Below, one piece after another: positions 11,490 to 52,051 of a stretch of DNA of 64,000 nucleotides. Positions within the stretch are counted from its first letter, which is position 1, and each line of letters starts with the position of its first letter. Below the pieces are notes generated by a model. That model saw only the letters and a program-made list of their open reading frames with translations, had not been told where the DNA came from and did no database searches. This stretch comes from Synechococcus sp. PROS-9-1 (GTDB taxonomy: Bacteria; Cyanobacteriota; Cyanobacteriia; PCC-6307; Cyanobiaceae): positions 682,001-746,000 of the forward strand of contig NZ_CP047961.1 in NCBI RefSeq assembly GCF_014279775.1, in the 5' to 3' direction. Both the position numbers and the translations under genes were made by a program.

Positions 11490-12437
11490 ATGGATAAGGG
11501 CGTTGCTGCTGTTCTCACCTCCTTAACCGGGAGTGATTACCTGTCGTCTGCGGACATTTCTGCGCAGGAAACCCAGGCTCTGCTTGACCTTGCGCGCCAA
11601 CTGAAGTCTGGTGACCGGCGCATCGATCTCGGCAATCGGGTGCTGGGGTTGATCTTCACCAAAGCATCCACCCGCACCAGGGTGAGCTTTCAAGTGGCGA
11701 TGGCCCGGCTCGGTGGTCAAACCGTGGATCTCAATCCCCAGGTCACCCAGCTCGGTCGTGGTGAACCCTTGGAAGATACGGCCAGGGTCTTGAGTCGTTT
11801 TTGTGACGCTCTCGCTGTGCGCACCTATGCCCAACAGGAGCTCGTGGATTACGCCTACTGGGCTTCGATTCCCGTGATCAATGCCCTCACGGATCTCGAG
11901 CATCCGTGTCAGGCCTTGGCTGATTTCCTCACGATGCAGGAGGCCTTTGGTGATCTGCAAGGCCAAACCCTGGCTTACGTCGGCGATGGAAACAACGTGG
12001 CCCACTCCTTGATGCTCTGCGGGGCTCTTCTTGGCGTGAATGTACGCATCGGCTGTCCCGATGGTTTTGAGCCGTTACCCGGGGTGCTCGATCAAGCCCA
12101 TGAACTTGCTGTGGCTGGAGCTCAGATCGAGGTCACCAGTGACCCCGTTGCGGCGGTGCGCGGAGCCCAGGCGTTGTATACGGATGTTTGGGCATCCATG
12201 GGCCAGGAACAGGAGCAGGCGGAGCGCGAACAGGCTTTCAAAGGCTTTTGCTTGGATGAAGCCCTGCTGGCAGAAGCTGATCCCAAAGCGATTGTGCTGC
12301 ACTGTTTGCCTGCCCATCGCGACGAGGAGATCAGTGCCGGGGTGATGGAGAGTGCGTCCAGCCGGATCTTTGACCAAGCGGAGAATCGTCTGCATGCCCA
12401 GCAGGCTCTCCTCGCCGTTTTGCTTGGTGGTTTGTGA
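11490..12437 (+). CDS. argF: ornithine carbamoyltransferase
   Basis: Forms citrulline from ornithine and carbamoyl phosphate in arginine synthesis. The carbamoyl-phosphate site STRTR is at residues 60-64, and the ornithine-binding/catalytic motif HCLPAHR lies near residue 272. Length 315 matches the family. The ATG at 11490 fits the expected N-terminus. Its stop overlaps the GTG of the esterase gene by four bases, suggesting co-transcription. Confidence 0.95.
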   Translation: MDKGVAAVLTSLTGSDYLSSADISAQETQALLDLARQLKSGDRRIDLGNRVLGLIFTKASTRTRVSFQVAMARLGGQTVDLNPQVTQLGRGEPLEDTARVLSRFCDALAVRTYAQQELVDYAYWASIPVINALTDLEHPCQALADFLTMQEAFGDLQGQTLAYVGDGNNVAHSLMLCGALLGVNVRIGCPDGFEPLPGVLDQAHELAVAGAQIEVTSDPVAAVRGAQALYTDVWASMGQEQEQAEREQAFKGFCLDEALLAEADPKAIVLHCLPAHRDEEISAGVMESASSRIFDQAENRLHAQQALLAVLLGGL

Positions 12438-13186
12438 GCGCATCGCCCCAGGCGTTTTCACTGCCTGGGGGGGCAGTGACGGTGGTTCTCATTCATGGAT
12501 TCACCGGCTCGCCTTCTGAGCTGCAGCTCCTCGCTGAGGCCTTGAATTCCGAGGGCTATGGCGTAGAGGTTCCCCTGCTCATGGGTCATGGAACAAACCT
12601 CAATGAGTTGATGGGGGTGCATCCGCAGCAGTGGATCGACCCTCTTGATGCCTTGATCACTCGTCTGTTGTCAGAAGGTCAGAAGGTGGTGGTGGGAGGG
12701 TTGTCGTTGGGTTCGATTTTGAGCTTGCAATTGGCCTTGCGTTACCCCCAAATCAAGGCTCTCTTGCTGTATTCACCTCCTGTTCGCAGCGGAGATCCCC
12801 GCCGCTTTTTGGCCCCTGTGCTGATCCAATTCACACAATCGCTGCCAAAGCCGGCCTCTGACTTCTTTGATCCAATCGCGGCAGAGCGGCTTTGGTCTTA
12901 CGACCGCTACCCAGTGGCCACCAGTGCTCGCGTGCTTGATCTCATCTCTCGTACGCGCAGGCAGCTCCACCAGGTTCAGCAACCACTGCTGGCGATTGCG
13001 AGTCGTCGCGACAAGGTGATTTCACACAGTGGCATTGAGCTGTTGATGCGCACCGTGCAGTCCTCTCCTCGAGAGCTTCACTGGTTAGAGCGCAGTAGTC
13101 ATTCGATCACGGTGGATGCTGAATGGACAGCGGTGCGTGATCTCAGTCTCGAATTTCTACGTAAGATTTTTTCAACGTCAATTTGA
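12434..13186 (+). CDS. alpha/beta hydrolase, carboxylesterase / monoacylglycerol lipase type
   Basis: A 250-residue serine hydrolase. The oxyanion-hole region is LIHGFTGSPSE (about 18-28), the nucleophile elbow is GGLSLGS, the acid is probably the Asp in IASRRDKV and the histidine is in SSHSITVD near the end. The layout resembles thermostable carboxylesterase Est30 and bacterial monoacylglycerol lipases. Substrate unknown. It starts at GTG within the argF stop (GTGA overlap) and heads a chain of overlapping small genes. Confidence 0.85.
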   Translation: MSASPQAFSLPGGAVTVVLIHGFTGSPSELQLLAEALNSEGYGVEVPLLMGHGTNLNELMGVHPQQWIDPLDALITRLLSEGQKVVVGGLSLGSILSLQLALRYPQIKALLLYSPPVRSGDPRRFLAPVLIQFTQSLPKPASDFFDPIAAERLWSYDRYPVATSARVLDLISRTRRQLHQVQQPLLAIASRRDKVISHSGIELLMRTVQSSPRELHWLERSSHSITVDAEWTAVRDLSLEFLRKIFSTSI

Positions 13187-13189
13187 AGC

Positions 13190-13360
13190 ATGGATCAAGT
13201 CGAACGAGACAACTGGCAAAGGATTCTCGAAACCTTAGAAGCGGCGGGTGATTGCGACAGCGGCTTTTATCGCAGGGCTCAAGCCATCTGCAACGGACAG
13301 CCAGACCCCTTGCTGGAGCAGGAGCGGAAGGATCAGGAACAGAGAGAGCAGAGCTCATGA
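13190..13360 (+). CDS. small hydrophilic protein, 56 aa
   Basis: ATG at 13190, three bases after the esterase stop. It encodes a charged helical peptide (MDQVERDNWQRILETLEAAG) ending in a Glu/Gln/Arg-rich tail. The stop overlaps the next ATG (ATGA). Its place in a tightly coupled gene chain supports expression. Function unknown. Confidence 0.6.
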   Translation: MDQVERDNWQRILETLEAAGDCDSGFYRRAQAICNGQPDPLLEQERKDQEQREQSS

Positions 13361-13605
13361 GCATTGACCCGATTGAGCGTGGCTTGGAACAATCCTTTGG
13401 GCTCGAAAAGTGGGGTCGGTTCATCCGTGAGTGCGATGACATCGACACCCTGCGAGAAACGGCTCTTTCTCTGGTGCAGCAACTGGCTCAGCTCAAGGCT
13501 TCTAGTGCCTGGATGGCAACGCGTGCCTCCGAATCCGAAAACGCCAAATTGGAAATGTTGGCTGAATTGATCAAGCAAAAAAACGTCAACCAGGAGAAGC
13601 AATGA
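13357..13605 (+). CDS. small helical protein, 82 aa
   Basis: The ATG at 13357 lies inside the previous stop codon (ATGA), and its own stop overlaps the next ATG the same way. The protein is alpha-helical and acidic (IDPIERGLEQSFGLEKWGR, then LVQQLAQLKASSAW), without membrane spans or Cys motifs. It may be a conserved picocyanobacterial hypothetical; no function can be assigned. The open frame continues upstream to 13252, but that part belongs to the preceding gene. Confidence 0.65.
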   Translation: MSIDPIERGLEQSFGLEKWGRFIRECDDIDTLRETALSLVQQLAQLKASSAWMATRASESENAKLEMLAELIKQKNVNQEKQ

Positions 13606-14072
13606 GCGGTCTTTCCCTCCTGCGGATGTCCGTTCGATTGCGAACCATCGTGATCATTGGATCCACGGCCGCTGCCCTGTCGGTTGCTTCTGCATTGCCG
13701 AGTGATGCCAGCTGGGCGCCAAAACCTGAACCCAAGTTTTGGCGTGAGGTGCGCCAGCAAATGAGCGTTCAGGAAACGTCAGCACCATCGGATTGGAGGT
13801 TTCTGGAGGCGATGCAATCCCCCAAAATCGACGCGGCCGAATATTTGCGAGACCCTTTCCGTCGTGATCAGACGGTGAGCTTTCAGGCCTTGTTGTTGAT
13901 GCGTAAAGGGCAGAGCAGTCCTTGGGGAATGCGGCAGTTATCGATGCGCGCCCAGTGTCTTAAGGGGGTGTTGGAGCGACAGGATCAGGAGGGTCGTTGG
14001 AGTGTTTACCCAGGACGGAAAGGTACGGCTTCCAAGGTGAACTGGATCTGCGCTTTAGCTCCCAATCCTTGA
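13602..14072 (+). CDS. exported hypothetical protein, 156 aa
   Basis: Coupled to the preceding gene by an ATGA overlap. The N-terminus has a basic patch and a hydrophobic run (TIVIIGSTAAALSVASALP), consistent with a signal peptide cleaved near residue 35. The mature part is rich in Arg, Gln and Trp, with two Cys (AQCLKGVLER, WICALAPNP) that could pair. No family recognised. Confidence 0.65.
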   Translation: MSGLSLLRMSVRLRTIVIIGSTAAALSVASALPSDASWAPKPEPKFWREVRQQMSVQETSAPSDWRFLEAMQSPKIDAAEYLRDPFRRDQTVSFQALLLMRKGQSSPWGMRQLSMRAQCLKGVLERQDQEGRWSVYPGRKGTASKVNWICALAPNP

Positions 14073-14098
14073 GGCCCTTGCCAAATCCCCATGGAATA

Positions 14099-14112
14099 GG
14101 TACATATGTATT
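14099..14112. promoter_or_regulatory. probable LexA (SOS) operator upstream of lexA
   Basis: GGTACATATGTATT contains the perfect 10-base palindrome TACATATGTA, 20 bases before the lexA start. As I recall it, the proposed cyanobacterial LexA box is AGTACWNWTGTACT; this site differs at the first and the thirteenth positions. Its place directly before lexA fits autoregulation. It could overlap the promoter. Confidence 0.65.
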
Positions 14113-14132
14113 GACTGAATTGGATCATCCCG

Positions 14133-14750
14133 GTGACCACTGGATCCCCCGAGCCGCTCACCACTGCTCAGCAGGAGCTTTACGACTGGCTGTCGGACTA
14201 CATCGGTAGCCATCGCCATAGCCCTTCTATTCGTCAGATGATGCAGGCGATGGGGCTTCGTTCACCCGCTCCTGTGCAAAGTCGACTGCGCCATTTGCAG
14301 CAGAAGGGATGGCTCACCTGGCAGGAGGGTCAAGCGCGCACCTTGCAATTGTTGGGGGATGTGGCGTTGGGTATTCCGGTGCTGGGCGCTGTAGCGGCCG
14401 GTGGTTTGGTGGAAACCTTCGACGATGTTCAAGAACACCTTGATCTAGCTCCAGTGCTTGAAACCCGCGGCTTGTTTGCGCTCACGGTGAATGGTGATTC
14501 GATGGTGGATGCTCACATCGCTGATGGTGATGTTGTGCTTATGGAGCCTGTACTCGAGCCCCGTCGTTTGCGTCAGGGCACGATTGTGAGTGCTTTGGTG
14601 GCAGGCAGTGGCACCACCCTCAAGCATTTTCATCTTGATGGAAGTGTGGTGCGCTTGGAAGCGGCAAATCCTGCTTACGACCCCATTGAGTTGCCAGCGG
14701 AGCAGGTGCAGGTTCAAGGCAAATTAATGGCGGTGTGGCGCCAGGTTTGA
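14133..14750 (+). CDS. lexA: SOS repressor LexA
   Basis: A 205-residue repressor and self-cleaving serine peptidase. The N-terminal winged helix spans roughly residues 10-70 (SPSIRQMMQAMGLRSPAPVQ as the helix-turn-helix). The cleavage region is GAVAAGG with the Ala-Gly bond. The S24 peptidase domain has the nucleophile in GDSMVDA and the lysine in GTTLKHF. All self-cleavage residues are present, unlike some cyanobacterial LexA proteins that have lost them, so a classical RecA-triggered SOS response is likely. GTG start. Confidence 0.93.
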   Translation: MTTGSPEPLTTAQQELYDWLSDYIGSHRHSPSIRQMMQAMGLRSPAPVQSRLRHLQQKGWLTWQEGQARTLQLLGDVALGIPVLGAVAAGGLVETFDDVQEHLDLAPVLETRGLFALTVNGDSMVDAHIADGDVVLMEPVLEPRRLRQGTIVSALVAGSGTTLKHFHLDGSVVRLEAANPAYDPIELPAEQVQVQGKLMAVWRQV

Positions 14751-14814
14751 GCTCCTTGGCGGTGTAAGCTTCGCCACGACAACGAACAGGCTTGCGGGCT
14801 TTGGCGTTGTTCAT

Positions 14815-14887
14815 GGGGCCATAGCTCAGCTGGTAGAGCACCTGCATGGCATGCAGGGGGTCAGCGGTTCGAATCCGCTTGGCTCCA
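14815..14887 (+). tRNA. tRNA-Ala (GGC anticodon)
   Basis: A 73-nt cloverleaf. The acceptor GGGGCCA pairs with TGGCTCC followed by A73. The anticodon stem CCTGC/GCAGG encloses the loop ATGGCAT with anticodon GGC. The T-arm contains GGTTCGAATCC. CCA is not encoded. Its 3' part is repeated at 23093, marking it as the integration target of the island that follows. Confidence 0.95.
14837..14887 (+). repeat. 51-bp direct repeat, left copy (att site within tRNA-Ala)
   Basis: The 3' 51 bases of tRNA-Ala, from AGCACCTG to GGCTCCA, are identical to 23093-23143. Repeats of a tRNA 3' end flanking accessory DNA are the usual trace of tyrosine-integrase insertion. Confidence 0.85.
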
Positions 14888-14928
14888 CTAGGTTTTCACC
14901 AAGTGAACCATCCCCACTAGTGCAAAAG

Positions 14929-15105
14929 TCAGTGCAAGAAACTGGCGACTTCTGCGTTTTGCACTAACTCCACCCGTACGGACTCCAAGATCAGATCTTG
15001 CTGGAGCAGGTGCAGCCCTCCTCCCATCAGGGCAACGGCTTCAGCCAAGCCATTCTCTGAGATGCAGGCGCAGCATCGTGCAATCGACAGGTGATCAGCC
15101 CACAT
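14929..15105 (-). CDS. possible small protein, 58 aa (doubtful)
   Basis: An ATG-started frame directly inside the island edge. The C-terminal part (ISENGLAEAVALMGGGLHLL, then LILESVRVELVQNAEV) reads like a plausible helical protein, while the N-terminus is Cys-rich and less convincing. It may be the worn end of a larger lost gene. No family recognised. Confidence 0.3.
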   Translation of the reverse strand: MWADHLSIARCCACISENGLAEAVALMGGGLHLLQQDLILESVRVELVQNAEVASFLH

Positions 15106-15366
15106 TCACCGTTGGATTCGCGTCTCCCCAAGATGCTGTAAACGCGCCGGAATAGCTAGTTACTTCCGCCCCGTCAGCTCATCCCATTCGATCGATCCAT
15201 ATCCACCCTCTCGAAGCTGTCTCCCGCGGCGTTGCATCGCATCGAACTCTTTATCGCTGTGGTTCTCCCATCACTCGATCTACCCGCAAAATGTGCGATT
15301 GGTGAGCGTCATAGACCACACCACTGACCCACGACAGTGGGGTTAATTGGTCTTATCTTGGTTGGC
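15106..15366 (-). other. island-edge non-coding stretch with a gene remnant
   Basis: No complete gene. On the minus strand about 15155-15270 reads WENHSDKEFDAMQRRG, then GYGSIEWDELTGRK and a stop, with stop codons just upstream. The pattern loosely recalls DUF29-like proteins and is best seen as a fragment. Confidence 0.3.
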
Positions 15367-15534
15367 ATGTTGAAGACATTAAAGACAGACGCTCGGCAGC
15401 GTCGATTGGTTGAATCGCTTCAGCAGCGGTTTCGACTTGCTGAAGAAACTCGTGATGCCCGCGCCAAACAGGAGCTCTTCCGCGAAGCGGTTTATCTCGG
15501 GATTCAGCCGCAGCTGTTCACTGACCCACATTGA
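15367..15534 (+). CDS. small helical protein, 55 aa, coupled to TIM-barrel gene
   Basis: The ATG at 15367 gives a basic helical peptide (MLKTLKTDARQRRLVESLQQ) rich in Arg, Glu and Gln. Its TGA overlaps the TTG start of the next gene (TTGA), which argues for translational coupling. The frame is open for ten more codons upstream. No family recognised. Confidence 0.55.
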   Translation: MLKTLKTDARQRRLVESLQQRFRLAEETRDARAKQELFREAVYLGIQPQLFTDPH

Positions 15535-16388
15535 ATTTGAAGTTGCTGCTGTTTAAAACCCTTTGGGGTTGGCAGGACTCACTAGCCAAGGCCTGTGAAC
15601 GGTCCCAATTTGATGACTTTGATGGGTTGGAAATCAATCTTGACCACCCAGCCTTGGTCGTCTTGCCACCGTCGGAGATTCGTCGATTGTTGCAGCGGGG
15701 CCAACAGAGGCTCATTATCGAGATCGCAACAGGGGGCGGTTACACCCCATCCCTCGATTGGAGCCCAGATGATCACCTGGCTCAGTTGAGTGAAGATCTT
15801 TTACGTGCTGTTCGACTTAATCCACTGAAGATCACGTTGATTACCGGCAGCGATAGTTGGTCTGAGCCCCATCAGGACTCCTTCCTTGAGGCTGCCCTTG
15901 ATCAAATCGAGGCCTGTCCAATTCCGGTGACCCTTGAGACCCATCGCAGTCGATCCCTATTCGATCCGTGGCGTCTGTCGGCCCGGGTGGCGAAACATCC
16001 GCGGCTGCGCCTGACGGCTGATTTGAGTCACTGGTGTGCCGTAACTGAACGATTAATGACGCCTGAGTTGGCTCCTGTTCAAGCAATGGCTGGACGGGTT
16101 GACCACATCCATGCCCGTGTCGGACATGCCCAGGGGCCGTCTGTCAGCCATCCCTTCGCGCCCGAATGGGCCGAGGCGCTTGAGGCTCATCGTCTCTGTT
16201 GGCAGTTTTTTCTGGATCGATCGCTCCACCTGGATCAGCCAATCACCATCACTCCAGAGTTTGGTCCTGATGGCTATATGCCCCTCCATCCGTTTAGTGC
16301 TAACCCCCTCTCGGATGTTCAGATTCTCAATGCGGAGATGGCATCGTGGTTGCGCTCCAACTTGTTGCCCGCAGCGGTCGATAGCTGA
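15531..16388 (+). CDS. xylose-isomerase-like TIM-barrel protein (sugar isomerase/epimerase superfamily)
   Basis: A 285-residue protein with features of the AP-endonuclease/xylose-isomerase-like barrel: an early FDGLEINL strand, PVTLETHRSRSLFDPW (metal-binding Glu), RLTADLSHWC, then DHIHARVGHAQGP and TITPEFGPDGY. These acidic and His positions suit a divalent-metal site. Members isomerise sugars or small keto compounds; the substrate here is unknown. TTG start coupled to the 55-aa gene. Its 3' end overlaps the convergent Rieske gene by 70 bases. Position inside the guanidine island suggests, but does not prove, a related role. Confidence 0.75.
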   Translation: MNLKLLLFKTLWGWQDSLAKACERSQFDDFDGLEINLDHPALVVLPPSEIRRLLQRGQQRLIIEIATGGGYTPSLDWSPDDHLAQLSEDLLRAVRLNPLKITLITGSDSWSEPHQDSFLEAALDQIEACPIPVTLETHRSRSLFDPWRLSARVAKHPRLRLTADLSHWCAVTERLMTPELAPVQAMAGRVDHIHARVGHAQGPSVSHPFAPEWAEALEAHRLCWQFFLDRSLHLDQPITITPEFGPDGYMPLHPFSANPLSDVQILNAEMASWLRSNLLPAAVDS

Positions 16389-17389
16389 CTCCTATAAATC
16401 GATTGCCAGTGAAGGATCCTCTGTTCCAGTCGGTGGGGAGGCCCTGGATTGAAAGTGTCGTCGTAACCAAGCTGCGCTGATTCCACCAGGACCCGATCTT
16501 CCTCTAAAAACGTGAGTAACTGTTCGAGCCAGGCGTCTGCAGCGGCGTTGTCGACGGTTTCAGTTGGTGCGAACAGCCGTAACTGCATCGTGCAACAGCT
16601 GGGCAGATTCGGCAAAAACTCCAGCAGCGCTATTCGTCCGTCTGGCCACACAAGTAGATGGCTCCACGGAGGTAATCCAAATGTGAGAAACCGCCCCCCA
16701 TCCGGATGGGGAGTTTCCAGCAGAGTGCCGTAGCGGCTGAAGCGATGGACGTACTGGCGCACCGGGCCTTGCTCGCGGTGGAGGGTTTTTGGATGGGCAA
16801 TTGCGACGTGGTAATCGTCGAGCGTGTTGTCATGCGCGATTTTCCAATTGCAGGCCAGGCTGCGTTGGACTTGTCGCAGCTGTATCGGCGCTGCTGACCA
16901 GGGGATGTTGGAGGTGTCGTGGACGATTGCAAGCTGTTCATCGAGGGAGATTGCCTGAGCGTTCAGGGAGACCCAGATCAGTGGTCCGTCAAGACGGCAT
17001 GGGAGCTCATGCAATCCCCAGTCCCGACGATCGAAACCATGCTCAAAATCCGATTCCCGTGTTGCCGCTAGCAATTCACCTTGGAGGTTGTAGGTCCAGC
17101 CGTGATACGGGCAAATCAGACGCCGGCATGGCTTGCCAGCCTCGCCATCCGCCTGGAAGACAGCACCGCGGTGGGGGCATCGGTTTCGAAAAGCCCTTGG
17201 CTGCTCGCCCTCAGGCCAGGTCAGCAGAAGGGGTTGGTGCAGCAGGGTGATCGCCAACGACTGACCAGGTCGAAGATCAGCTGCAGCGGCCACTGGGTGC
17301 CAAAAGTGGTTCGCGTACAGCGTGCAATCCAACTGGTGTATCTCCTCGTCTCGATACAGCCATCCAGGTAGGAATGGCTGATTCAGCAC
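16319..17389 (-). CDS. Rieske non-heme iron oxygenase, alpha subunit type
   Basis: A 356-residue ring-hydroxylating-oxygenase-like protein. The Rieske 2Fe-2S ligands are C71-x-H73 (CPHRG) and C93-x2-H96 (CPYHGW). The mononuclear iron facial triad begins D191-x2-H194-x4-H199 (DDYHVAIAH), with the second carboxylate expected in the C-terminal part. Family members do hydroxylations and N- or O-demethylations using a partner reductase, which is not encoded here. GTG start overlaps the ABC ATPase stop by 7 bases, so it is the last gene of the guanidine operon. A role in oxidising or N-dealkylating a substituted guanidine is my inference. Confidence 0.85.
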   Translation of the reverse strand: MLNQPFLPGWLYRDEEIHQLDCTLYANHFWHPVAAAADLRPGQSLAITLLHQPLLLTWPEGEQPRAFRNRCPHRGAVFQADGEAGKPCRRLICPYHGWTYNLQGELLAATRESDFEHGFDRRDWGLHELPCRLDGPLIWVSLNAQAISLDEQLAIVHDTSNIPWSAAPIQLRQVQRSLACNWKIAHDNTLDDYHVAIAHPKTLHREQGPVRQYVHRFSRYGTLLETPHPDGGRFLTFGLPPWSHLLVWPDGRIALLEFLPNLPSCCTMQLRLFAPTETVDNAAADAWLEQLLTFLEEDRVLVESAQLGYDDTFNPGPPHRLEQRILHWQSIYRSQLSTAAGNKLERNHDAISALRI

Positions 17390-18138
17390 AGCGCTGGCTC
17401 CAGCTCTCTCATGGTGGTTGACAGGGAGCGACGCTTGGTGAGGAATGCGTTGCTCAACCGCAGCTGATCGAGGTTGGTTTTGTCTAGCTCGACGTCGAAG
17501 GAACGGATGATCCGGCCAGGGTTCGAGGCCATCACATGCACCTGTTGGGCTAACACCAGGGCCTCCTCTACATCATGAGTGATGAGCAACACAGTGAGGC
17601 CCGTTCGTTGCCAGAGCTTGAGCAGGAAATCCTGCATGGATTCCCGGATTTGCAAATCAAGGGCACCAAAGGGTTCATCAAGAAGCAAGATGCTTGGGTT
17701 GGTGGCGAGTGCCCGTGCAATGGCGACTCGTTGTTGCATGCCGCCTGAAAGTTCCCTTGGCAGTTTGTTAGCGGCATCACTGAGGCCGACAACTTCGAGG
17801 AAGTAGGCGGTTCGTTCTTTGATTTCCGCCGGCTTCATTCGCTGGAGACGCATTCCAAAACCAACGTTTTCGGCGGCATTGAGCCAGGGATAAAGGCTAT
17901 ATTTCTGAAACACCATTCCGCGGTCTGGACCAGGACCTCTCAATGGACTGCCATCCACCGAGATGGAGCCGCTACTGGGTTGATCTAGGCCGGCGATCAA
18001 ACGCAGAATTGTGCTTTTTCCTGATCCAGAGCTGCCAACGATCGCCCTGAAGTCACCTGACTTCATCGAGAATGTAAGGCCTTCGAGGATTGTTTTGTCC
18101 CCGAAACGCTTGCAGAGATTGTTGACAATCAGTTCCAT
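17383..18138 (-). CDS. ABC transporter ATPase, NitT/TauT/SsuB type
   Basis: A 251-residue nucleotide-binding subunit: Walker A GSSGSGKST, signature LSGGMQQR, Walker B ILLLDEPFGALD, and the switch His in LLITHDVEEAL. The start at 18138 follows the permease stop by two bases and removes five extra codons of the longer frame. Resembles NrtD/SsuB/TauB ATPases. With the permease and binding protein upstream it should power import; the riboswitch and hydrolase in the same operon point to guanidine as the substrate. Confidence 0.88.
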   Translation of the reverse strand: MELIVNNLCKRFGDKTILEGLTFSMKSGDFRAIVGSSGSGKSTILRLIAGLDQPSSGSISVDGSPLRGPGPDRGMVFQKYSLYPWLNAAENVGFGMRLQRMKPAEIKERTAYFLEVVGLSDAANKLPRELSGGMQQRVAIARALATNPSILLLDEPFGALDLQIRESMQDFLLKLWQRTGLTVLLITHDVEEALVLAQQVHVMASNPGRIIRSFDVELDKTNLDQLRLSNAFLTKRRSLSTTMRELEPALC

Positions 18139-18140
18139 GG

Positions 18141-18968
18141 TCAGATGGCCCACTTACAGCTCAGCCGCAGCAGCAGGCGAAAACCCATGTCAATGGCAAA
18201 GCCAATGAGGCCAAGCACAATGAGTTCGGCAAAAATTTGGTCGGTGCGGAAGAACCGTTGGGCTAGTTGGATGCGTTTGCCAAGACCCACTTCAGCGGCG
18301 ACGAGCTCCGCCACCACCACCAGGTTCCAGGAGGTTGCGATATTGATTCGCAACGTATCAATAATGCTGGGAAGGCTGTAGCGGGCCACGACCTGTACCA
18401 GCAGTTGACGGCTTTTCCCTCCCAGCGTGAGTGTGGTTTCAATCAATTCCTTGGGAACAAACTTCACTGCATCCATCACCATCAGAATGTTGAAATAAAC
18501 CGTGCCAATAAAGATCAGGGCGATCTTTGGTTCTTCGCCGATACCGAGGTAGATGATCAGTAAGGGAATAAAGGCTGCCGCCGGCATGTAGCGCAACATG
18601 GCGATGAGCGGCTCACAGAGAGCGCAGATCGCTGGGTAGACCCCCATACATATGCCAATGGGTACAGCAAGAAGCGTGGCCAAAAGAAAGCCGCCGAACA
18701 CACGACCTGTGCTTGCGACGATGTCTTGGAACAAAATGCCGCTCTCTGCCATTGCGGCCAGTGATCGGAACACGGCCTGGGGCGAAGGAAGAAACTTCTC
18801 ATCCACTAGACCCAAGGATGCGATGGCGGTCCAGAGCAGGAGGGGCAGCAGGAGGGATGCCACCTGCAGGCCGCCACGCATGGCCTTGGATGGCATGGCA
18901 CCCAAGGTGAACAGAGAGAGAAGCTTGGAGTTTCTCTCCTTGCTGACAGCGGCGGCCGTGGCAGTCAT
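18141..18968 (-). CDS. ABC transporter permease, NitT/TauT type
   Basis: A 275-residue inner-membrane subunit with about six spans and the EAA-like coupling loop (VPKELIETTLTLGGKSRQLL). The ATG at 18968 shares one base with the stop of the binding-protein gene (TGATG on the minus strand). Belongs to the BPD_transp_1 permeases of nitrate, taurine and sulfonate importers. Expected to form a homodimer with two ATPases. Confidence 0.87.
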   Translation of the reverse strand: MTATAAAVSKERNSKLLSLFTLGAMPSKAMRGGLQVASLLLPLLLWTAIASLGLVDEKFLPSPQAVFRSLAAMAESGILFQDIVASTGRVFGGFLLATLLAVPIGICMGVYPAICALCEPLIAMLRYMPAAAFIPLLIIYLGIGEEPKIALIFIGTVYFNILMVMDAVKFVPKELIETTLTLGGKSRQLLVQVVARYSLPSIIDTLRINIATSWNLVVVAELVAAEVGLGKRIQLAQRFFRTDQIFAELIVLGLIGFAIDMGFRLLLRLSCKWAI

Positions 18969-19969
18969 CAAGAAGCTGCGATCTTCTTGATGAAGCTGTC
19001 ATCAAACAGCTCGCTCATATCTGGCTTTTCAGGCAGAAAACCGACCGAGACCATGAAGTCAGCCATCGATTCCGCTGCATAAGGCATGTGTTGCATGCCA
19101 TCCCCCTGGCTGAAGGCCTCAAGGTTTTCCTTGATTGAGAAGAACCGGGTGCCGTCTTTGTACTGCTCATACTCAGCGGTAGGTATGCCAGCACGTTTGG
19201 CCATGATCGCCTCAGACTTTTCAGGGTTTTTGGCCATGAACTCCCGAACCTCCCACCAGGTTTGGACGATTTTCTGAACATCGTCGGGGCGTTCTTTAAT
19301 CAGATCACCACTCAGGGTGAGCAGATCGGGAATCGCGCCTGGGTATTCCTTGGAGCTGGCAATCACGCGGGCGCCTTCTCGCTTCATTGCCGTTCCGGTG
19401 TATGGCGGGAATGCACCCACGGCATCGACCTGGCCAGCGGCGAAGGCCGTTGCAGCTTGGTCGGTCGGCATGCCTTTAATCACAACATCATCACGGCTCA
19501 GGCCAGCGTCTTTTAACGCAAGGCTGAGCAGGTAATCGTCAACAACACCCTCTTCAACGGCAACGGTCTTGCCCTTGAGTTCAGCGACGGATTTAATCGA
19601 AGCATCTGCAATGATCTGGTCATTGCCGGATGAGTTGTCGTTTACTAGCACCACAACTTCACCGCCGTTCTCACCAGGCAGGAAGGAGATGGTGTCGTTG
19701 AGGGTCTGGGAGTTGCCGTCGATCTTGCCGGCGGCAAATGTTTCCATCGACTGCAGGTAGCCGTCGAACCATTTCATTTCTACGTTCACGCCGTTCTTTT
19801 CGAACAGCTTTTCCTCAACGGCTATCGCCCAAGGCCACCAACCGGCCCAGTTGCTGTAGCCGATCACGATGGGAGTGCCCCCCACCGTGGGGGTTGGTGG
19901 CTTGGAGCAGGCGACGGCTAAAACGATGGCTAGGCCGGCGATGAGAAGGTTGCGCAGTTGTTTGGTCAT
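18968..19969 (-). CDS. ABC transporter substrate-binding lipoprotein, NMT1/TauA-like
   Basis: A 333-residue periplasmic binding protein. The start at 19969 gives a lipoprotein signal (LLIAGLAIVLAVAC, lipobox Cys at about residue 21). The mature part has the NMT1/SsuA-like fold signature (VIGYSNWAGWWPWAIA near the N-terminus, then ELKGKTVAVEEGVVDDYLL). Several Trp and acidic residues would suit a small cation, but the ligand cannot be read from sequence. Operon context suggests guanidine or a derivative. Confidence 0.85.
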   Translation of the reverse strand: MTKQLRNLLIAGLAIVLAVACSKPPTPTVGGTPIVIGYSNWAGWWPWAIAVEEKLFEKNGVNVEMKWFDGYLQSMETFAAGKIDGNSQTLNDTISFLPGENGGEVVVLVNDNSSGNDQIIADASIKSVAELKGKTVAVEEGVVDDYLLSLALKDAGLSRDDVVIKGMPTDQAATAFAAGQVDAVGAFPPYTGTAMKREGARVIASSKEYPGAIPDLLTLSGDLIKERPDDVQKIVQTWWEVREFMAKNPEKSEAIMAKRAGIPTAEYEQYKDGTRFFSIKENLEAFSQGDGMQHMPYAAESMADFMVSVGFLPEKPDMSELFDDSFIKKIAAS

Positions 19970-20004
19970 GGCATGGGCGAGATAAAAAAGCAGGTTCGGT
20001 TCGC

Positions 20005-20709
20005 TCAGGCAGCGGCCAGAGCAGGGGCGGTTGTGGACCGGTTGGCAAGGGCTTGTAGAACCCACCGGTGCCAAGCATCGAGGCCTTCACCGGTGATTGC
20101 GGAGACCTCGATCACGGTTGCGTTGGGATTGATGCTGAGGATGTTGTGGCGAATCGCAGCGAGATCAACGGGGAGATGGGGAAGCAGATCAACCTTGGTG
20201 ATCAGCACCACATCTGCATTGCGGAACATCAGCGGATATTTGAGTGGTTTGTCGTCTCCCTCCGTGACACTCAGCAGCGCCACCTTGAGGTGTTCACCCA
20301 CATCGAATTCAGCTGGGCAAACGAGATTGCCCACGTTTTCAACCAAGAGAAGGTTCAATTCCGCAGGATCGAGCCGTTGTTGCAGCAACCTGAGCCCACC
20401 ACTGACCATCGCCGCGTCCAAGTGGCATGCACGTCCAGTGGTGATGGGAACAACTGGAATGCCGACAGCTTCCAGGCGATCAGCATCGAGTTGGGTGGTC
20501 ATATCGCCTTCTAAAACTGCCACCCGCAGATCGCTAGCTAGTGAGGGGAGTGAGCGTTCGAGCAACGCTGTTTTTCCTGCACCCGGACTGCTCATGAGGT
20601 TGAGGCAGAGCAGGTCCCAGCGCTCGAGCTGTTGGTTGTTGTGTTCGGCTTGATGAGTGTTGGCGGCTAGAAGGTTGAGGCCAAGCGTGTCCTCGAGTGG
20701 CATGTGCAT
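20005..20709 (-). CDS. ghaB: HypB-like GTPase, nickel insertion for guanidine hydrolase (GhaB-like)
   Basis: A SIMIBI-class GTPase: P-loop SSPGAGKT, then [17 protein letters not shown], and a base-recognition ITKVDLL. In hydrogenase systems HypB delivers nickel with HypA. In Synechocystis the hypA/hypB-like neighbours of the guanidine hydrolase are needed for its nickel loading (Funck et al. 2022, from memory). No hydrogenase genes are in the window. I start it at 20709 ([10 protein letters not shown]), because upstream codons overlap the HypA-like gene and do not resemble HypB. Confidence 0.85.
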
Positions 20710-20731
20710 CAGAAAAGGGGGGTATTGGTTT

Positions 20732-21130
20732 TCAGCGACGACGCTGGATTGACATCGACTCAACGACAGCTGCTGCGTCGCTGCGGTAATCGATGCTGCG
20801 GATGCGCAATTCCCTGCCGCTCTCGATTTCCTCAAGCGGGTGATCGCAACAGGGCGAGCGATAGGCGTTCTCCGGGACGGGGACGTAGGAGCTGTTGCAG
20901 CTCAGACATCGACCAACGAAGGGAATCTCCGTGATCGTGAGTTTGGATCCATCGAGCCAACTGCCCTGCACTACAGCGTTGTAGGTGGTTACGAGCTGAT
21001 CGGGTTCGACGCAGGTGAAGCGACCCACATCGAGGTGAACGGTCTCGACCATCACCGAGGAGTCATCACGTTGTTCGCGCCATTCATTCAGAGAGATCAG
21101 AAGGCACTTGGTCATGTCGACTTCATGCAT
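20732..21130 (-). CDS. ghaA: HypA-like nickel metallochaperone (GhaA-like)
   Basis: A 132-residue protein that begins MHEVD, with the nickel-binding His2 and Glu3 of HypA. It carries a zinc site of four Cys: C75-x2-C78 and the adjacent pair C94-C95. In canonical HypA the second pair is CxxC, so the adjacent Cys pair is a departure. It lies three bases after the hydrolase stop and just before the HypB-like gene, in keeping with a dedicated nickel-loading pair for the hydrolase. Confidence 0.82.
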
Positions 21131-21133
21131 GGG

Positions 21134-22324
21134 TTATCTCCACTTCTGATCGACGTTCATGTTGCATTCGTCACTGATCCATGCCGGTTTGCCCTTGCGG
21201 GGCAACTGGCCACTCACCACGAGGTGAGCCATGGAGTCGCAAATAACACGGGTTGCCATCAGTGATGTCATGTCGCTGATGTCGTACGGAGGTGATACTT
21301 CAACGATTTCAAGCCCGCAGACGGGAACATTGCGCACGATCAACTCGAGCAGCTTCAGCGCTTCTCGAGGCATCAATCCGCCTGGTTCTGGCCAGCCGGT
21401 TCCCGGTACGAAACCAGCATCAATGCAATCGATATCGAACGAGATGTAGACGCAGTCGGTGCCGTCAGTCGCGCGTTCAATGGCGTATTGAGCCGCAGCT
21501 TCCAAGCCCATTTCGGTGATGTCGGTGACCGTGAGCACGTTTGTGCCTCGTTCCCGGCAAACTTTCACCCCTTCCCTGGGGACCTGCCAGCCACCGATGC
21601 CGAGCTGCACCAGGTTCACGGCCGGAGCATTGGCCATGTTTGTTGCGTGGAACCATGGACAAGTGTGCATCCGCTCATCCAAGTCAATCTCCTGGGTGTC
21701 GACGTGACGGTCGAAGTGGATGATTCCAACCTTTTTGTCGCCGAGATGGCGGCAAACCCCTCGAACGGTGGGGAAACCAATGGAGTGGTCACCGCCGAGG
21801 ATGATCGGGAAGGCCCCGCTGGAGAACACGTGGGCGATGCCCTTAGAGATTTGATCGAAGCTCTTTTCGTTATTCGCGGGAATCGTGAAGATGTCACCCA
21901 CATCGCACAGGGTGATCTGTTCCCGCAGATCCACCCCCATTTCGTAGTTGTAGGTGGTGTATAGAGCAGAGATGCGGCGGATGCCCTGGGGGCCGAAGCG
22001 CGTACCAGGGCGATAAGTCGTACCGCAGTCGTGGGGTACGCCAACAATGGCGACGTCGTACTTGCCGACCTGACTCACGTCTTCCAGGTAGGGCGCCTTC
22101 ATGAAAGTGTTGATGCCGGCGAAGTGCGGCAATTCACCTCGAGAAAACGTGGAGATGTTGCGATCAACGATGCTCTCAGCTGCTTCCAGGCCTAGACGCT
22201 TGGCTTGATCAACTTCCTGTTGCCAACCCGTGAGGGGAAGTTTTCGTTCTTTTTCGAGAGCTTGCATCCCTTCGCTTGGATGCGAGCGTTGGAATAGTCC
22301 GGATGGATCCGTAGGAGACGACAT
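21134..22324 (-). CDS. gdmH: Ni-dependent guanidine hydrolase (arginase/agmatinase family)
   Basis: A 396-residue ureohydrolase, longer than agmatinases and close to the 390 residues of Synechocystis Sll1077, which splits guanidine to ammonia and urea. Metal-site motifs are GGDHSIGFP, DRHVDTQE and SFDIDCIDAGFVPGTGW. The usual agmatinase DAHxD reads DRHVD here, and the common GTGTPEPGG reads GTGWPEPGG, the Trp suggesting a smaller pocket. An N-terminal extension of about 80 residues precedes the barrel. The ATG at 22324 is chosen because the longer frame would run through the riboswitch. First gene of the operon. Agmatinase activity cannot be excluded by reading alone. Confidence 0.88.
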   Translation of the reverse strand: MSSPTDPSGLFQRSHPSEGMQALEKERKLPLTGWQQEVDQAKRLGLEAAESIVDRNISTFSRGELPHFAGINTFMKAPYLEDVSQVGKYDVAIVGVPHDCGTTYRPGTRFGPQGIRRISALYTTYNYEMGVDLREQITLCDVGDIFTIPANNEKSFDQISKGIAHVFSSGAFPIILGGDHSIGFPTVRGVCRHLGDKKVGIIHFDRHVDTQEIDLDERMHTCPWFHATNMANAPAVNLVQLGIGGWQVPREGVKVCRERGTNVLTVTDITEMGLEAAAQYAIERATDGTDCVYISFDIDCIDAGFVPGTGWPEPGGLMPREALKLLELIVRNVPVCGLEIVEVSPPYDISDMTSLMATRVICDSMAHLVVSGQLPRKGKPAWISDECNMNVDQKWR

Positions 22325-22350
22325 TGAACGGGGGTTTCGGGTTGGGGCGG

Positions 22351-22440
22351 TCTCCCGGGCTTTTATCCCTCCGTGTGCCGACATCGTCGACTGAAATCTC
22401 TTGGACCAGACATCCCGGAGGACCGGAACCCTAGATTTCT
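22351..22440 (-). promoter_or_regulatory. guanidine-I riboswitch (ykkC subtype 1)
   Basis: On the minus strand, in order: CTAGGGTTCCG (from 22434), CTGGTCCAAGAGA (from about 22409) and ACACGGAGGGATAAAAGCCC followed by GGGAG (22376-22352). These are the conserved blocks of the guanidine-I aptamer, in the right order and spacing. It ends about 27 bases before the gdmH ATG, so it is a direct leader for the operon and should switch expression on with free guanidine. A distinct terminator is not obvious; control of translation or a compact expression platform is possible. Confidence 0.93.
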
Positions 22441-22739
22441 TCCGCAACATCACTATTGACGTTGATGTTGACCTCGTATGTGTGACTTGATACAAAATCT
22501 GGATCTGATCTACAGCTTTATCGGACCGTCTAATTGATGCATCTGCTGGATTTATTTTAAAACTGCAGGTAATAATAATTTCGCCTTTGAGCTCACATTA
22601 TGCTCATTTAGGTTAAGCAAAATGCCGTCTATTTGATAAATAATTAAGGCTAAATTGCTCGGCTGTGTCTTGAAACTGGCTCGCCCAATTCTGCATCAAC
22701 TCAATTGTGTGCTGAGCCCCACTCAATCGAAAGGATGAG

Positions 22740-22916
22740 TCACATTGCTCTTTGGATTGGCGCTGTCCCTTCATCTGTTCGTCTTCTAAACACGCCATAT
22801 TGTCTAAGCAAATAGAGCCACTCAGGTGACCAGCAGCAACTGCTTCTCGTATAAGCAAGCTCCTCAATACCGAGCATGAGGCAATCCAAGTAGCCCTCAG
22901 CACAAGCTAAAGCCAT
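22740..22916 (-). CDS. possible small ORF of the GIEELGRDVAAE family (doubtful, perhaps frameshifted)
   Basis: An ATG-started 58-codon frame whose beginning (MALACAEGYLDCLMLGIEEL) aligns with the small gene at 24134-24286. After GIEEL the similarity moves to another frame (EAVAAGHLSG), so an indel may have broken it. A competing frame at 22613-22903 covers the same DNA. The 22443-23092 stretch holds nothing else recognisable. Confidence 0.3.
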   Translation of the reverse strand: MALACAEGYLDCLMLGIEELAYTRSSCCWSPEWLYLLRQYGVFRRRTDEGTAPIQRAM

Positions 22917-23092
22917 CCAGATCGACGCCAGATCTCAGAACAATCAACCCGCGCTGGGCAGAGTCAGCTCGCAAGAGATACAGGAGGAAGGGCTTTGGAC
23001 ATCCGCTTCCCATCATCTTTGCTCTAAAAACTGCTCTAAATAAATGGTTGATTCTTCTTTAGGCCAGTTATATCAGTTGGTTTGAGTCATGA

Positions 23093-23143
23093 AGCACCTG
23101 CATGGCATGCAGGGGGTCAGCGGTTCGAATCCGCTTGGCTCCA
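23093..23143 (+). repeat. 51-bp direct repeat, right copy (partial tRNA-Ala, att site)
   Basis: Identical to the last 51 bases of tRNA-Ala (14837-14887); the 5' 22 bases of the tRNA are absent, so it cannot make a tRNA. A terminator hairpin follows 10 bases later, which would have served the tRNA before insertion. Confidence 0.88.
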
Positions 23144-23413: not shown

Positions 23414-23589
23414 CGCAACAGCTTTCGATCTCCAAGCGCAGCATCAGAGATAGCAGAAGCCAACAGCCCCAACGAGAGACGACGCAGCATGGAGCGTTTA
23501 TTAGATGCCGTAACGATGCCTCGCTTGTGCTGCTGCTGCTCGCTGCAGTAGGCAGTTTCAGCTTTGCTGCTATTCGGTGGGCAATATAA
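23405..23589 (+). pseudogene. frameshifted small membrane protein gene
   Basis: The ATG at 23405 opens MSQRNSFRSPSAASEIAEAN and continues to RRSMERLLDAVT, but this frame soon turns into a Cys run and stops at 23551. The next frame from about 23507 reads NDASLVLLLLAAVGSFSF, then AAIRWAI and a stop at 23589, a good transmembrane end. Joining the two at GCCGTAACGATGCC needs a single-base change, so this looks like one roughly 60-residue protein with a recent indel or sequencing error. Confidence 0.5.
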
Positions 23590-23608
23590 AACCCCGCTAG
23601 TGGCGGGG
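23587..23608 (-). terminator. orphan hairpin, minus-strand orientation
   Basis: On the minus strand CCCCGC-CACTA-GCGGGG is followed by TTTTAT. A near-identical hairpin occurs in the opposite orientation at 26025. The nearest minus-strand gene upstream ends at 24134. It may be bidirectional, also ending the frameshifted plus-strand gene. Confidence 0.5.
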
Positions 23609-23694
23609 CTCCTTCATAAACTTTAGAAGCCTTAAATACATAAGGAAGTCAACCTCCCGCATAAGCTTTAGTTGAGTATTACCAAAACAAGCCA

Positions 23695-24033: not shown

Positions 24034-24133
24034 TCAAAAGAGAAGCCTGAGATTTTTTAATTCTTGATAGTCTCCAATTGACTTGTGTTTTGATCAAAAA
24101 TAAAATCAATTTATTCGTCTGGGTAGGTACCAT

Positions 24134-24286
24134 TTACTCAGATTCAACCTCAGCAGCTACATCCCTCCCAAGCTCTTCAATACCGAGCACCAGCCAAGAC
24201 TTGTAGCAATCAGAGTCAATTGCCCTGAGTGCCATCATTAGCTCTTGAAGCAGAGGCATTCTTGTCTTTGTAATTGTTGATGTCAT
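24134..24286 (-). CDS. 50-aa protein with GIEELGRDVAAE motif
   Basis: The ATG at 24286 opens MTSTITKTRMPLLQELMMAL; the C-terminal half reads CYKSWLVLGIEELGRDVAAE before a stop. The motif IEELGRDVAAE recurs in the plus-strand gene at 31244, with mainly silent third-base differences (CTT/CTC, GGA/GGG, GCG/GCT). This conservation argues that both are translated. Function unknown. Confidence 0.6.
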   Translation of the reverse strand: MTSTITKTRMPLLQELMMALRAIDSDCYKSWLVLGIEELGRDVAAEVESE

Positions 24287-26130: not shown

Positions 26131-26754
26131 TTAAAAGGCAACTGCCTTCTGGGAGTTGGCATGGACATGGTCTGCTTCGTCTTTGACGATGGATTCAACG
26201 ACGTCTCTCATTGAGGTTGGTTGGTTATCGCCTCTTACCTTCCACATGCTGTTTGGCTTGTTCCAATAATGAACAGCGGTGGAAACAGCAGGTTGGCTCA
26301 ACCACTCATCTGACTGCTCAATCAGCATCCTTTTGTACGTCTTCACTGCCTCCACTTCCACTGCTTCACCCAACAGAGCAGCAAGCTCGTGATCGATAAG
26401 GGTGATGATGGCGAATGCCCAGTAGATGATGACAGCAATGTGACGTGCCAAGAACCTGTCACCCCAGTTCTTCAATCCATTGAGGTCTCGGGCAAAGATG
26501 TCTTCATGGGTTTGTTCGTTTGTGTCCTGGTAGCGAGCCAGTTCCAACGTCTCTCTGATGTTGCCTTTTCGATCTAGTCCAATCGTTTCCAGGTAATGGC
26601 AGGCACTCTCTTCTGCGGTGTAAGCAGTACGAGCAATGATTTCCAGTGATGCTGCCCTTCTCTCATCAGCCTTGCTCCAAACAACATTCAATAAGCTCTC
26701 TCCTGTTTCAATGATTTTGTGAGCAATCTCAGCCTTTCTCGTTTTAGTTTCCAT
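26131..26754 (-). CDS. alternative oxidase / PTOX-like diiron protein
   Basis: A 207-residue protein with all six expected diiron ligands of alternative and plastid terminal oxidases: E56 (HYLETIG), E80 and H83 (TNEQTHED), E133 (GEAVEVEAVKTY), E193 and H196 (DEADH). WGDRFLARHIAVIIYWAF matches the membrane-bound helix region. Such enzymes oxidise quinol and reduce oxygen to water, giving marine cyanobacteria an electron safety valve at the thylakoid. It is shorter and more divergent than typical PTOX, so substrate and activity are less certain. Confidence 0.75.
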   Translation of the reverse strand: METKTRKAEIAHKIIETGESLLNVVWSKADERRAASLEIIARTAYTAEESACHYLETIGLDRKGNIRETLELARYQDTNEQTHEDIFARDLNGLKNWGDRFLARHIAVIIYWAFAIITLIDHELAALLGEAVEVEAVKTYKRMLIEQSDEWLSQPAVSTAVHYWNKPNSMWKVRGDNQPTSMRDVVESIVKDEADHVHANSQKAVAF

Positions 26755-40010: not shown

Positions 40011-41042
<1,032 letters not shown>

Positions 41043-50662: not shown

Positions 50663-52051
50663 TCAGTCGAGGTCAGGCATAGCCAAGGTGGGCTCTGCTT
50701 GACGATCGATTCCTTTTTCGAAACCAGCAGCGGCAGCGCGGGCGCGGCCTGCATGCCAGAGGTGACCAACAAGGAAGAAGAAGGCAAGGATGAACTGCGT
50801 CGCGGCAAGCCACTGACGGATGTTCACGAAGTTCACCGAGTTGGGCTCGGTGATGATGCCTCCAACGGAGTTGATCGACGCGTTAGGAGCGTGGGTCATG
50901 TATTCAGCGGCGCGGCGAACCTGCCAAGGCTGAATATCGTTCTGAAGCTTGTCGAGGCTGAGGCCGTTGGGTCCACGAAGGGGCTCCAACCAAGGACCAC
51001 GGAAGTCCCAGAAACGCATCGTTTCACCACCAAAGATGATCTCACCAGTTGGTGAACGCATCAGGTACTTACCAAGACCCGTTGGGCCCATGGCCGAACC
51101 GATGTTGGCGCCCATGCGTTGGTCACGCACGAGGAAGGTGAAACTTTGGGCCTGGGAGGATTCGGCGTTGGTCGGGCCGTAAAACTCCGAGGGGTAAGCG
51201 GTGTTGTTGAACCAGATGAAGGCAGAGCAGATGAAGCTCATGAAGCTCAGAGCTCCAAGGCTGTAGCTCAGGTAGGCCTCACCATTCCAGATGAAGGCGC
51301 GTCGCACCCAGCCGAAAGGCTTGGTGATCACGTGCCAGATTCCACCGAAAATGCAGGTCAAACCAAGCCAGATGTGGCCACCGATGATGTCCTCCATGGA
51401 GTTCACACCGATGATCCAGCCTTCGCCACCAAAAGGTGCCCGGAACAGATATCCGAAGATCACACCGGGGTCGAGGGTGGGGTTCGTGATTAAACGAACG
51501 TCTCCACCACCTGGAGCCCAGGTGTCATAAACGCCACCAAAGAACATGGCCTTGAAGACCAGGAGCAGGCAGCCAACACCCAGAAGGATGAGGTGATAAC
51601 CAATGATGTTGGTCATCTGGTTTTTGTCGCGCCAATCCTGGGAGAAGAAAGTGGAGTAGTTCTCCAAAATCTCTGGACCACGAAGAGCGTGATACAGGCC
51701 GCCGAGTCCAAGCACGGCAGAACTGATCAGGTGCAGAACACCAACAACAAAGAAGGGGTAGAGGTTGGTGACCTCTCCGCCAGGACCAACGCCATAGCCA
51801 AGCGTGGCCACGTGTGGGAACAGGATCAAGCCCTGCTCATACATCGGCTTATCGAAGGTGAAGTGACTCACCTCGAACAGCATCATGGCGCCAGCCCAGA
51901 ACACCATCAGACCAGCGTGGGCCACGTGGGCACCTAGCAGTCGGCCAGACAGGTTGATGAGACGAGCATTACCAGCCCACCAGGCAAAGCCGGTGGAGTC
52001 GAGGTCTTTACCGCCAGTGGCGATAAGACCGGAATTAAAGGGCGTTTCCAC
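50663..52051 (-). CDS. psbC: photosystem II CP43 protein
   Basis: A 462-residue, six-span chlorophyll-binding inner antenna of PSII. It begins [20 protein letters not shown] at the GTG at 52051, the standard cyanobacterial start inside the psbD end (17-base overlap). It includes [20 protein letters not shown] and [20 protein letters not shown], the large lumenal loop bearing the Mn-cluster-ligand region. The upstream extension to 52129 is psbD sequence in another frame. Confidence 0.97.

Follow-up and report, generated by a model that had tools for sequence, protein, structure and literature searches.

The locus raises two questions: what a Rieske oxygenase does in an operon that otherwise appears devoted to guanidine, and how this operon reached its place in the chromosome. 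It lies in a stretch of 64,000 nucleotides (hereafter the window) of Synechococcus sp. PROS-9-1, whose genome is a single contig of 2.27 Mb (NZ_CP047961.1, positions 682,001 to 746,000). There, a guanidine riboswitch precedes seven minus-strand genes, coding for a GdmH-type guanidine hydrolase, two nickel chaperones, a three-component importer and the oxygenase, and a further gene converges on them from the opposite strand. The explanation favoured here, a guanidine-utilisation operon on a cassette bounded by tRNA-Ala, is very probable as a whole; within it, the reactions of the oxygenase and of the convergent gene's product are hypothetical. The find is sound, and its core has already been published.

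Along the minus strand, the order is riboswitch, GdmH, HypA, HypB, binding protein, permease, ATPase and Rieske oxygenase, with small intergenic gaps or overlaps. A sequence-only reading had proposed such a minus-strand operon with spacings of a few bases, and family matches and coordinates confirm it. Gene starts were picked by eye and then translated, and families were assigned with Pfam and NCBIfam models. The aptamer (22350-22445, minus strand), predicted by that reading at 22351-22440, passes the covariance search as a full-length match to the Guanidine-I model RF00442 (22445-22350, model positions 1-107 of 107) at 80.8 bits (E 8.4e-13), above the gathering score of 63, and 25 bases separate it from GdmH. 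The hydrolase (21134-22324) belongs to the Arginase family and is predicted by homology to depend on Ni2+. It is followed by a HypA-like nickel chaperone (20732-21130; PF01155, with TIGR00100 at 74.3 bits, below its cut-off of 88.1), a HypB-like nickel-insertion GTPase (HypB/CobW, 20005-20709; TIGR00073 at 272.5 bits against a cut-off of 121.2), the substrate-binding lipoprotein of the SsuA/NMT1 family (18968-19969; TIGR01728 at 277.8 bits against 163.5), whose ATG start at 19969 and lipobox were both recognised by eye, and the permease (18141-18968) and NitT/TauT/SsuB-type ATPase (17383-18138) of an ATP-binding cassette (ABC) importer, both assigned by family matches. The last gene (16319-17389) has a GTG start that overlaps the ATPase stop by 7 bases, and encodes the single alpha subunit of a Rieske non-heme iron oxygenase (PF00355 and PF00848, Ring_hydroxyl_A). 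Its closest named relative, 99% identical, is in a metagenome-assembled genome (MAG) titled Synechococcus sp. BS30m-G31, a match that does not establish the oligotrophic marine lineage of which the sequence-only reading spoke.

The assignment of the hydrolase as a guanidinase is supported by its scores. It reaches 766.9 bits with the structures 7esr/7oi1, which we take to be Sll1077, the guanidinase of Synechocystis, and 572 bits with 9fek, presumably the comammox guanidinase; the next ureohydrolase scores 171 bits and structure entries otherwise named agmatinase at most 134, so that the protein lies far nearer to the solved guanidinases and the suggestion of GdmH features stands. These identities agree with the accessible text of PMC12186494 and PMC11410670, the former being a review in which Sll1077 is described as shown to be a guanidinase. 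Were the enzyme an agmatinase, the operon would serve polyamine breakdown; the agmatinase model TIGR01230 is indeed narrowly passed (179.5 against a cut-off of 174.3 bits), and in the PDB both 7esr and 9fek go under "probable/putative agmatinase 2". This reading has a negligible probability and is rejected on the scores; Sll1077, which we take 7esr to be, is a demonstrated guanidinase according to PMC12186494, and a guanidine riboswitch sits ahead of the gene. In a relative (G063 C81), a GdmH match with an internal stop was observed.

The HypA match in the operon is the only one in the whole genome, which agrees with nickel chaperones serving GdmH. The genome also contains one match to the urease alpha subunit. 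In the proposed scheme, free guanidine would bind the Guanidine-I riboswitch and switch the operon on, the NitT/TauT-type importer would bring guanidine into the cell, HypA and HypB would load nickel into GdmH, and GdmH would hydrolyse guanidine to ammonium and urea, the latter passing to the urease encoded elsewhere in the genome. The Rieske oxygenase and the product of the convergent gene, part of one metabolic unit with the rest, would most likely carry out a step ahead of guanidine and convert some related N-substituted compound that enters through the same importer.

The link between hydrolase and oxygenase is not peculiar to this strain. In a sample of 400 genomes of the family, GdmH (E<=1e-100) was found in 124, the Rieske protein (E<=1e-30) in 92 and the convergent gene (E<=1e-20) in 79. 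The Rieske protein is present in 88 of the 124 GdmH-positive genomes versus 4 of the 276 GdmH-negative ones; related genomes were counted individually, so Fisher tests on these co-occurrence counts exaggerate the significance. Most pairs are close neighbours (82 of 88 within 6 kb), while four lie on different contigs and two far apart. Of 69 named loci with GdmH, 68 keep the seven-gene order intact: 39 non-Prochlorococcus and 29 Prochlorococcus-type loci. The lone exception, L120, has no match to the binding protein. Since the Rieske gene served to retrieve these loci, they are uninformative on how often it is absent. Chance falls far short of explaining either this conserved order or the score of the riboswitch. 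To note, a contig titled as an Acidiferrobacteraceae MAG (L103) holds a Synechococcus-type operon whose GdmH is 97% identical, probably through a binning error.

The sequence-only reading placed the extent of the system at 16319-22440. The seven-gene operon fits this span, but the set does not end at 16319, as a convergent plus-strand gene (15531-16388), which overlaps the 3' end of the Rieske gene by 70 bp, travels along. It encodes a xylose-isomerase-like TIM-barrel protein, modelled with AlphaFold2 at a mean local confidence (pLDDT) of 91, whose Foldseek neighbours are sugar epimerases. PF01261 matches 18 of 34 aligned relatives at E<=1 (best 1.1e-10) and not the window protein itself. Of 79 family genomes with the TIM-barrel gene, 76 also have the Rieske gene; of the other three, G035 has a partial copy, and G138 and G350 are drafts (74% and 58% complete). 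Conversely, 16 Rieske genomes have no TIM-barrel gene, 13 of them of Prochlorococcus size (g18). Where the two genes share a contig (74 pairs), their matches overlap in 21 cases, are at most 500 bp apart in 41 and are farther apart in 12; in 11 of these 12, GdmH is the neighbour instead, no more than 360 bp away, and the loci viewed place the TIM-barrel gene on its upstream side. Among complete named loci, it is found in 39 of 39 non-Prochlorococcus ones (L105 holds a fragment) and in 0 of 29 Prochlorococcus-type ones. By this linkage, the TIM-barrel gene is a member of the guanidine set. A gene downstream of the Prochlorococcus-type operons (L066 8578-9441, L076 2543-3397) was considered as a relative and rejected, given 19-20% identity and missing motifs. 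The fragment in L105 (11176-11286, genome G049) is a decayed copy with two stops.

The Rieske protein itself gives some indication of the chemistry. Its model (pLDDT 87.9) is nearest in fold to CntA, a carnitine monooxygenase, and then to the stachydrine demethylase Stc2. Residues C71, H73, C93 and H96, presumably the CxH/CxxH ligands of the Rieske cluster, and H194, H199 and D298, presumably the 2-His-1-carboxylate triad, are invariant across 11 aligned rows. At residue 191, which we take to be the usual position of the bridging acid, the picocyanobacterial rows have Asp and the other aligned lineages Cys. The best NCBIfam match is GbcA, at 85.8 bits, below its equivalog cut-off of 670. A tree of 29 rows splits the picocyanobacteria from other cyanobacteria; it contains no outside Rieske enzymes, and a single guanidine clade is therefore unproven.

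The same Rieske type also occurs outside the family. A profile search of 194 genomes of the class found the Rieske type in 20, including three of the window's family; 16 stretches were taken from 16 of the 17 remaining genomes (all but G408). In L204 and L205 the order is GdmH, HypA, type III glutamine synthetase (GS-III), HypB, importer and Rieske, and L207 is alike without GS-III. In L198-L200 a riboswitch is followed by GS-III, importer and Rieske, with GdmH on a separate contig. L196, L197 and L202 combine importer, Rieske and riboswitch with DUF1989, biotin carboxylase and amidase genes and contain no GdmH (families were tested in L196 and L202); DUF1989 with such a biotin carboxylase presumably represents the guanidine carboxylase pathway. 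L201 and L206 have a riboswitch and a DUF1989-like pair, recognised by sight, beside Rieske, GS-III and importer, L208 and L203 only importer and Rieske (the L203 stretch being incomplete), and L209-L211 the Rieske gene alone. Genome-wide, 11 of the 17 genomes have GdmH at >=80% identity; five without it carry the carboxylase-like gene in full instead, split in two in G508, and the 68% complete G464 has just a fragment of a carboxylase. A GdmH or guanidine-carboxylase-like gene is thus present in 16 of the 17. As the Rieske type occurs with both degradation routes and guanidine is their common element, its place would be upstream of guanidine, where it may act, perhaps as an oxidative N-demethylase. 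The GS-III-like gene, which resembles glutamate-methylamine ligases, lies near the Rieske gene in 7 of the 16 stretches (L198-L201 and L204-L206). Within the family, a gene of this kind was also observed inside guanidine operons of Cyanobium-type genera (L063 4026-5378 and relatives).

The fold, the GS-III neighbour and a parallel in Vreelandella boliviensis point to methylated nitrogen compounds as the predicted substrates. In that bacterium, according to the accessible text of PMC12508155, the 2-oxoglutarate oxygenase MgdH and the lyase MgdL, encoded in a guanidine operon, demethylate methylguanidine. By analogy, the Rieske protein could hydroxylate N-methylguanidine or another N-alkylguanidine with O2 and electrons from ferredoxin, yielding guanidine and formaldehyde, the TIM-barrel protein helping in the breakdown of the intermediate or dealing with the aldehyde. 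Such direct demethylation is a serious possibility that nevertheless falls short of even chances. It would account for a Rieske type that accompanies either of the guanidine-degrading routes and frequently sits at loci with a guanidine riboswitch, and agrees with the neighbouring folds, Stc2 being an N-demethylase. Moreover, the comammox guanidinase forms no urea from methylguanidine, a result that PMC11410670, in the part available, describes as consistent with findings on its cyanobacterial counterpart, so that a prior step would be needed. Against this stand the low identity to CntA and Stc2 (19-22%), the Asp/Cys difference at residue 191 between lineages and the Prochlorococcus-type loci, which retain the Rieske gene without the TIM-barrel gene. 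The Guanidine-I riboswitch of Vreelandella, too, binds guanidine and not methylguanidine as PMC12508155 describes it, so methylguanidine alone might fail to induce the operon. The wider proposal, that the Rieske protein, with the TIM-barrel protein in most non-Prochlorococcus picocyanobacteria, oxidatively dealkylates N-methylated guanidines and feeds either the hydrolase or the carboxylase route, is put forward tentatively, as somewhat doubtful. Guanidine is a nitrogen source, and if the Rieske protein did make it from methylated precursors, this would name an origin for it, and a test, in widespread picocyanobacteria; the linkage to two degradation routes in any case turns the gene into a defined, testable question.

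The GS-III-like neighbour suggests another route, in which a ligase-like enzyme would make gamma-glutamylmethylamide from methylamine and the Rieske protein would oxidise it to glutamine and formaldehyde. One in-operon example scores 374.5 bits with the glutamate--methylamine ligase 9qur, 330 with the type III enzyme 7cql and at most 265 with other glutamine synthetases, and 30 of the 39 complete non-Prochlorococcus named operons contain such a gene, besides the seven outside stretches. However, the genome of the window has no match to it at E<=1e-60, L099-L106, L115 and the Prochlorococcus-type operons do without it while retaining the Rieske gene, and nine of 60 genomes with the in-operon ligase type have no Rieske gene. 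The methylamine route is accordingly quite improbable.

Split operons raise a third possibility, that the Rieske and TIM-barrel proteins use another imported amine or sulfonate and share only the importer with guanidine use. In G186, GdmH and the Rieske gene are 163 kb apart: a second cluster (L068) contains the importer, Rieske and TIM-barrel genes, GdmH-HypA-HypB lie elsewhere and a riboswitch was found at neither, so that the Rieske gene there goes with the importer and not with the hydrolase. G273 shows a similar separation, with 145 kb between GdmH and the Rieske and TIM-barrel genes. The membership of the binding protein in the SsuA family would also fit. Yet in L198-L200 a guanidine riboswitch heads the GS-III-importer-Rieske genes even though GdmH is on another contig, and this alternative is considered unlikely, if less so than the methylamine route.

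As to control, the sequence-only reading saw in the riboswitch a tie between free guanidine and every gene of the set; this suits the window and does not hold throughout the family, where Prochlorococcus-type and split-operon loci have no detectable one. A model built from 16 riboswitches was used to survey those loci among L099-L178 that include GdmH and 200 bases ahead of it, four incomplete loci being left aside. It found the element in 39 of 40 non-Prochlorococcus loci (L115 reaching only 19.5 bits) and in 0 of the 25 Prochlorococcus-type loci with upstream sequence (L136-L178). In an overlapping set (L063-L082) it is present in 15 of 19, the exceptions being two Prochlorococcus-type and two split-operon loci. 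No riboswitch reaches the gathering score in L067, L068 and L080, and a permissive cmscan upstream in L066, L067 and L068 gave just chance-level matches to other families. Of 46 non-redundant regions (drawn from 63 at <80% identity), ten have a GTA-N8-TAC box, which we take to be the NtcA consensus, no farther than 150 bases ahead of the riboswitch (e.g. L065, L101, L102 and L105; some of the ten come from related genomes), against a mean of 0.43 and a maximum of 4 in 2000 shuffles and 0-2 at other spacings. The window's own upstream region has no exact box. Of the 25 Prochlorococcus-type loci, 19 have an exact box, in most cases GTATGAAATGCTAC, at a distance of about 375-446 bases ahead of GdmH. 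One relative (L069 1003-1064) has a Glutamine-II riboswitch about 0.8 kb upstream of its guanidine riboswitch.

How the operon reached its place is suggested by its flanks. On the left is a tRNA-Ala(GGC) gene (14815-14888, plus strand; found by ARAGORN, 66.8 bits with the Rfam tRNA model), whose 3' end (14837-14887) is repeated without mismatch on the right, at 23093-23143, as a partial tRNA-Ala (29.4-bit tRNA match). This 51-bp direct repeat brackets the operon, and no further copy of its final 21 bases turns up in the window, even when 3 mismatches are allowed. Six genomes of the same genus (G283, G101, G332, G075, G034 and G213) match 12434-14887 at 88-91%, the alignment stopping at 14887, and a GdmH match at E<=1e-100 is missing from all six, G332 being only 58% complete. 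In G123 the operon is at 148-156 kb, the counterpart of 14096-14991 lying near 1.89 Mb. The repeat and the breakpoint of the relatives back the earlier idea of an island cassette and argue for a tRNA-Ala-bounded unit that would have been mobile. Among 17 other loci scanned for tRNA, one was positive, with a tRNA-Ala(GGC) beside the TIM-barrel remnant of L105 (titled Aphanocapsa feldmannii MAG); the last 25 repeat bases were not found there. The riboswitch-less Prochlorococcus-type loci and the bounded cassette hint at how a nitrogen trait moves and gets rewired.

Several observations weigh against this overall picture. On the operon strand, no terminator that would serve as expression platform was found, and folding of 156 nt gives no stability beyond that of shuffled sequences (z 0.68). 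No reductase family is among those matched in the operon proteins by the Pfam and NCBIfam scans. No integrase or tyrosine recombinase was found among the scanned proteins of 14888-23093, shorter open reading frames (ORFs) lying outside the scan. Across the family, 36 of the 124 GdmH-positive genomes have no Rieske gene, which is thus not required for guanidine use. Outside the family, the Guanidine-I riboswitch is present in nine of the 16 Rieske stretches and missing from seven: L203 and L204 end before the possible site and L211 is a short contig, while L205, L208, L209 and L210 are true negatives. In L196 the Rieske gene ends 72 bases before the riboswitch, and there, as in the L201-type loci, it adjoins the element without evident control by it.

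The right flank of the cassette has features of its own. Segments 23434-23610 and 24126-24258 match many sites in the same genus (e.g. G034) and are possible small repeated elements to the right of the tRNA copy. From 22000 to 44000, the GC content is low (0.42-0.49 per 2 kb, against 0.53-0.62 on the flanks) and there are short unassigned ORFs; the stretch also codes for an alternative-oxidase-like protein at 26131-26754 and for GAPDH at 40011-41039, and none of nine proteins scanned in this stretch is a tyrosine recombinase. Farther on, an IsrR antisense RNA lies at 51448-51634 (163.4 bits).

Among known systems, the operon of Synechocystis, presumably sll1077-sll1082 (GdmH, HypA2, HypB2 and ABC importer), is a known counterpart, its GdmH structure giving the 766.9 bits cited above. 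As reviewed in the accessible text of PMC12186494, it shares the guanidinase, nickel accessory genes, importer and guanidine-I control. The window differs by its Rieske gene, absent from the Synechocystis cluster according to PMC10119275, and by the TIM-barrel partner and the tRNA-Ala boundary, the Synechocystis locus being known here by description. The same paper, in its available text, describes the operon type in Synechococcus and Prochlorococcus (Syn-eCAG_001/Pro-eCAG_004), with guanidinase, HypA/B, a TauABC-like importer and the Rieske protein CK_00002251, and a ykkC riboswitch upstream in Synechococcus. The system is therefore already in print, the novelty implied for the riboswitch-HypAB-importer-Rieske operon falls away, and the window operon is one more member. 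The words "isomerase", "glutamine synthetase" and "NtcA" do not appear in the available main text of PMC10119275, and nothing on the cassette boundary, the partner gene or the two-pathway linkage turned up in the openly licensed literature, as far as searched. Tycheposons, described second-hand in the consulted part of PMC10872708, resemble the cassette by their tRNA boundary and nitrogen cargo and differ in that no tyrosine recombinase was identified in the window segment. For the Rieske protein, the enzymes to compare are Rieske enzymes of quaternary-ammonium compounds, CntA and Stc2, with template modelling scores on the query of up to 0.80 and 0.81, respectively, but with the low identity given above, and GbcA, the top NCBIfam match, which falls short of its cut-off. 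With MgdH/MgdL the likeness is a functional analogy only, in that an oxygenase encoded together with a guanidine riboswitch precedes guanidine breakdown, in the window by prediction: a 2-oxoglutarate enzyme and a lyase modelled with a beta-barrel (PMC12508155, as far as its text was available) stand there, a Rieske protein and a TIM barrel here. If the proposed dealkylation is true, the latter pair would be a second, unrelated solution to the same problem, borne in this lineage on a tRNA-bounded cassette.

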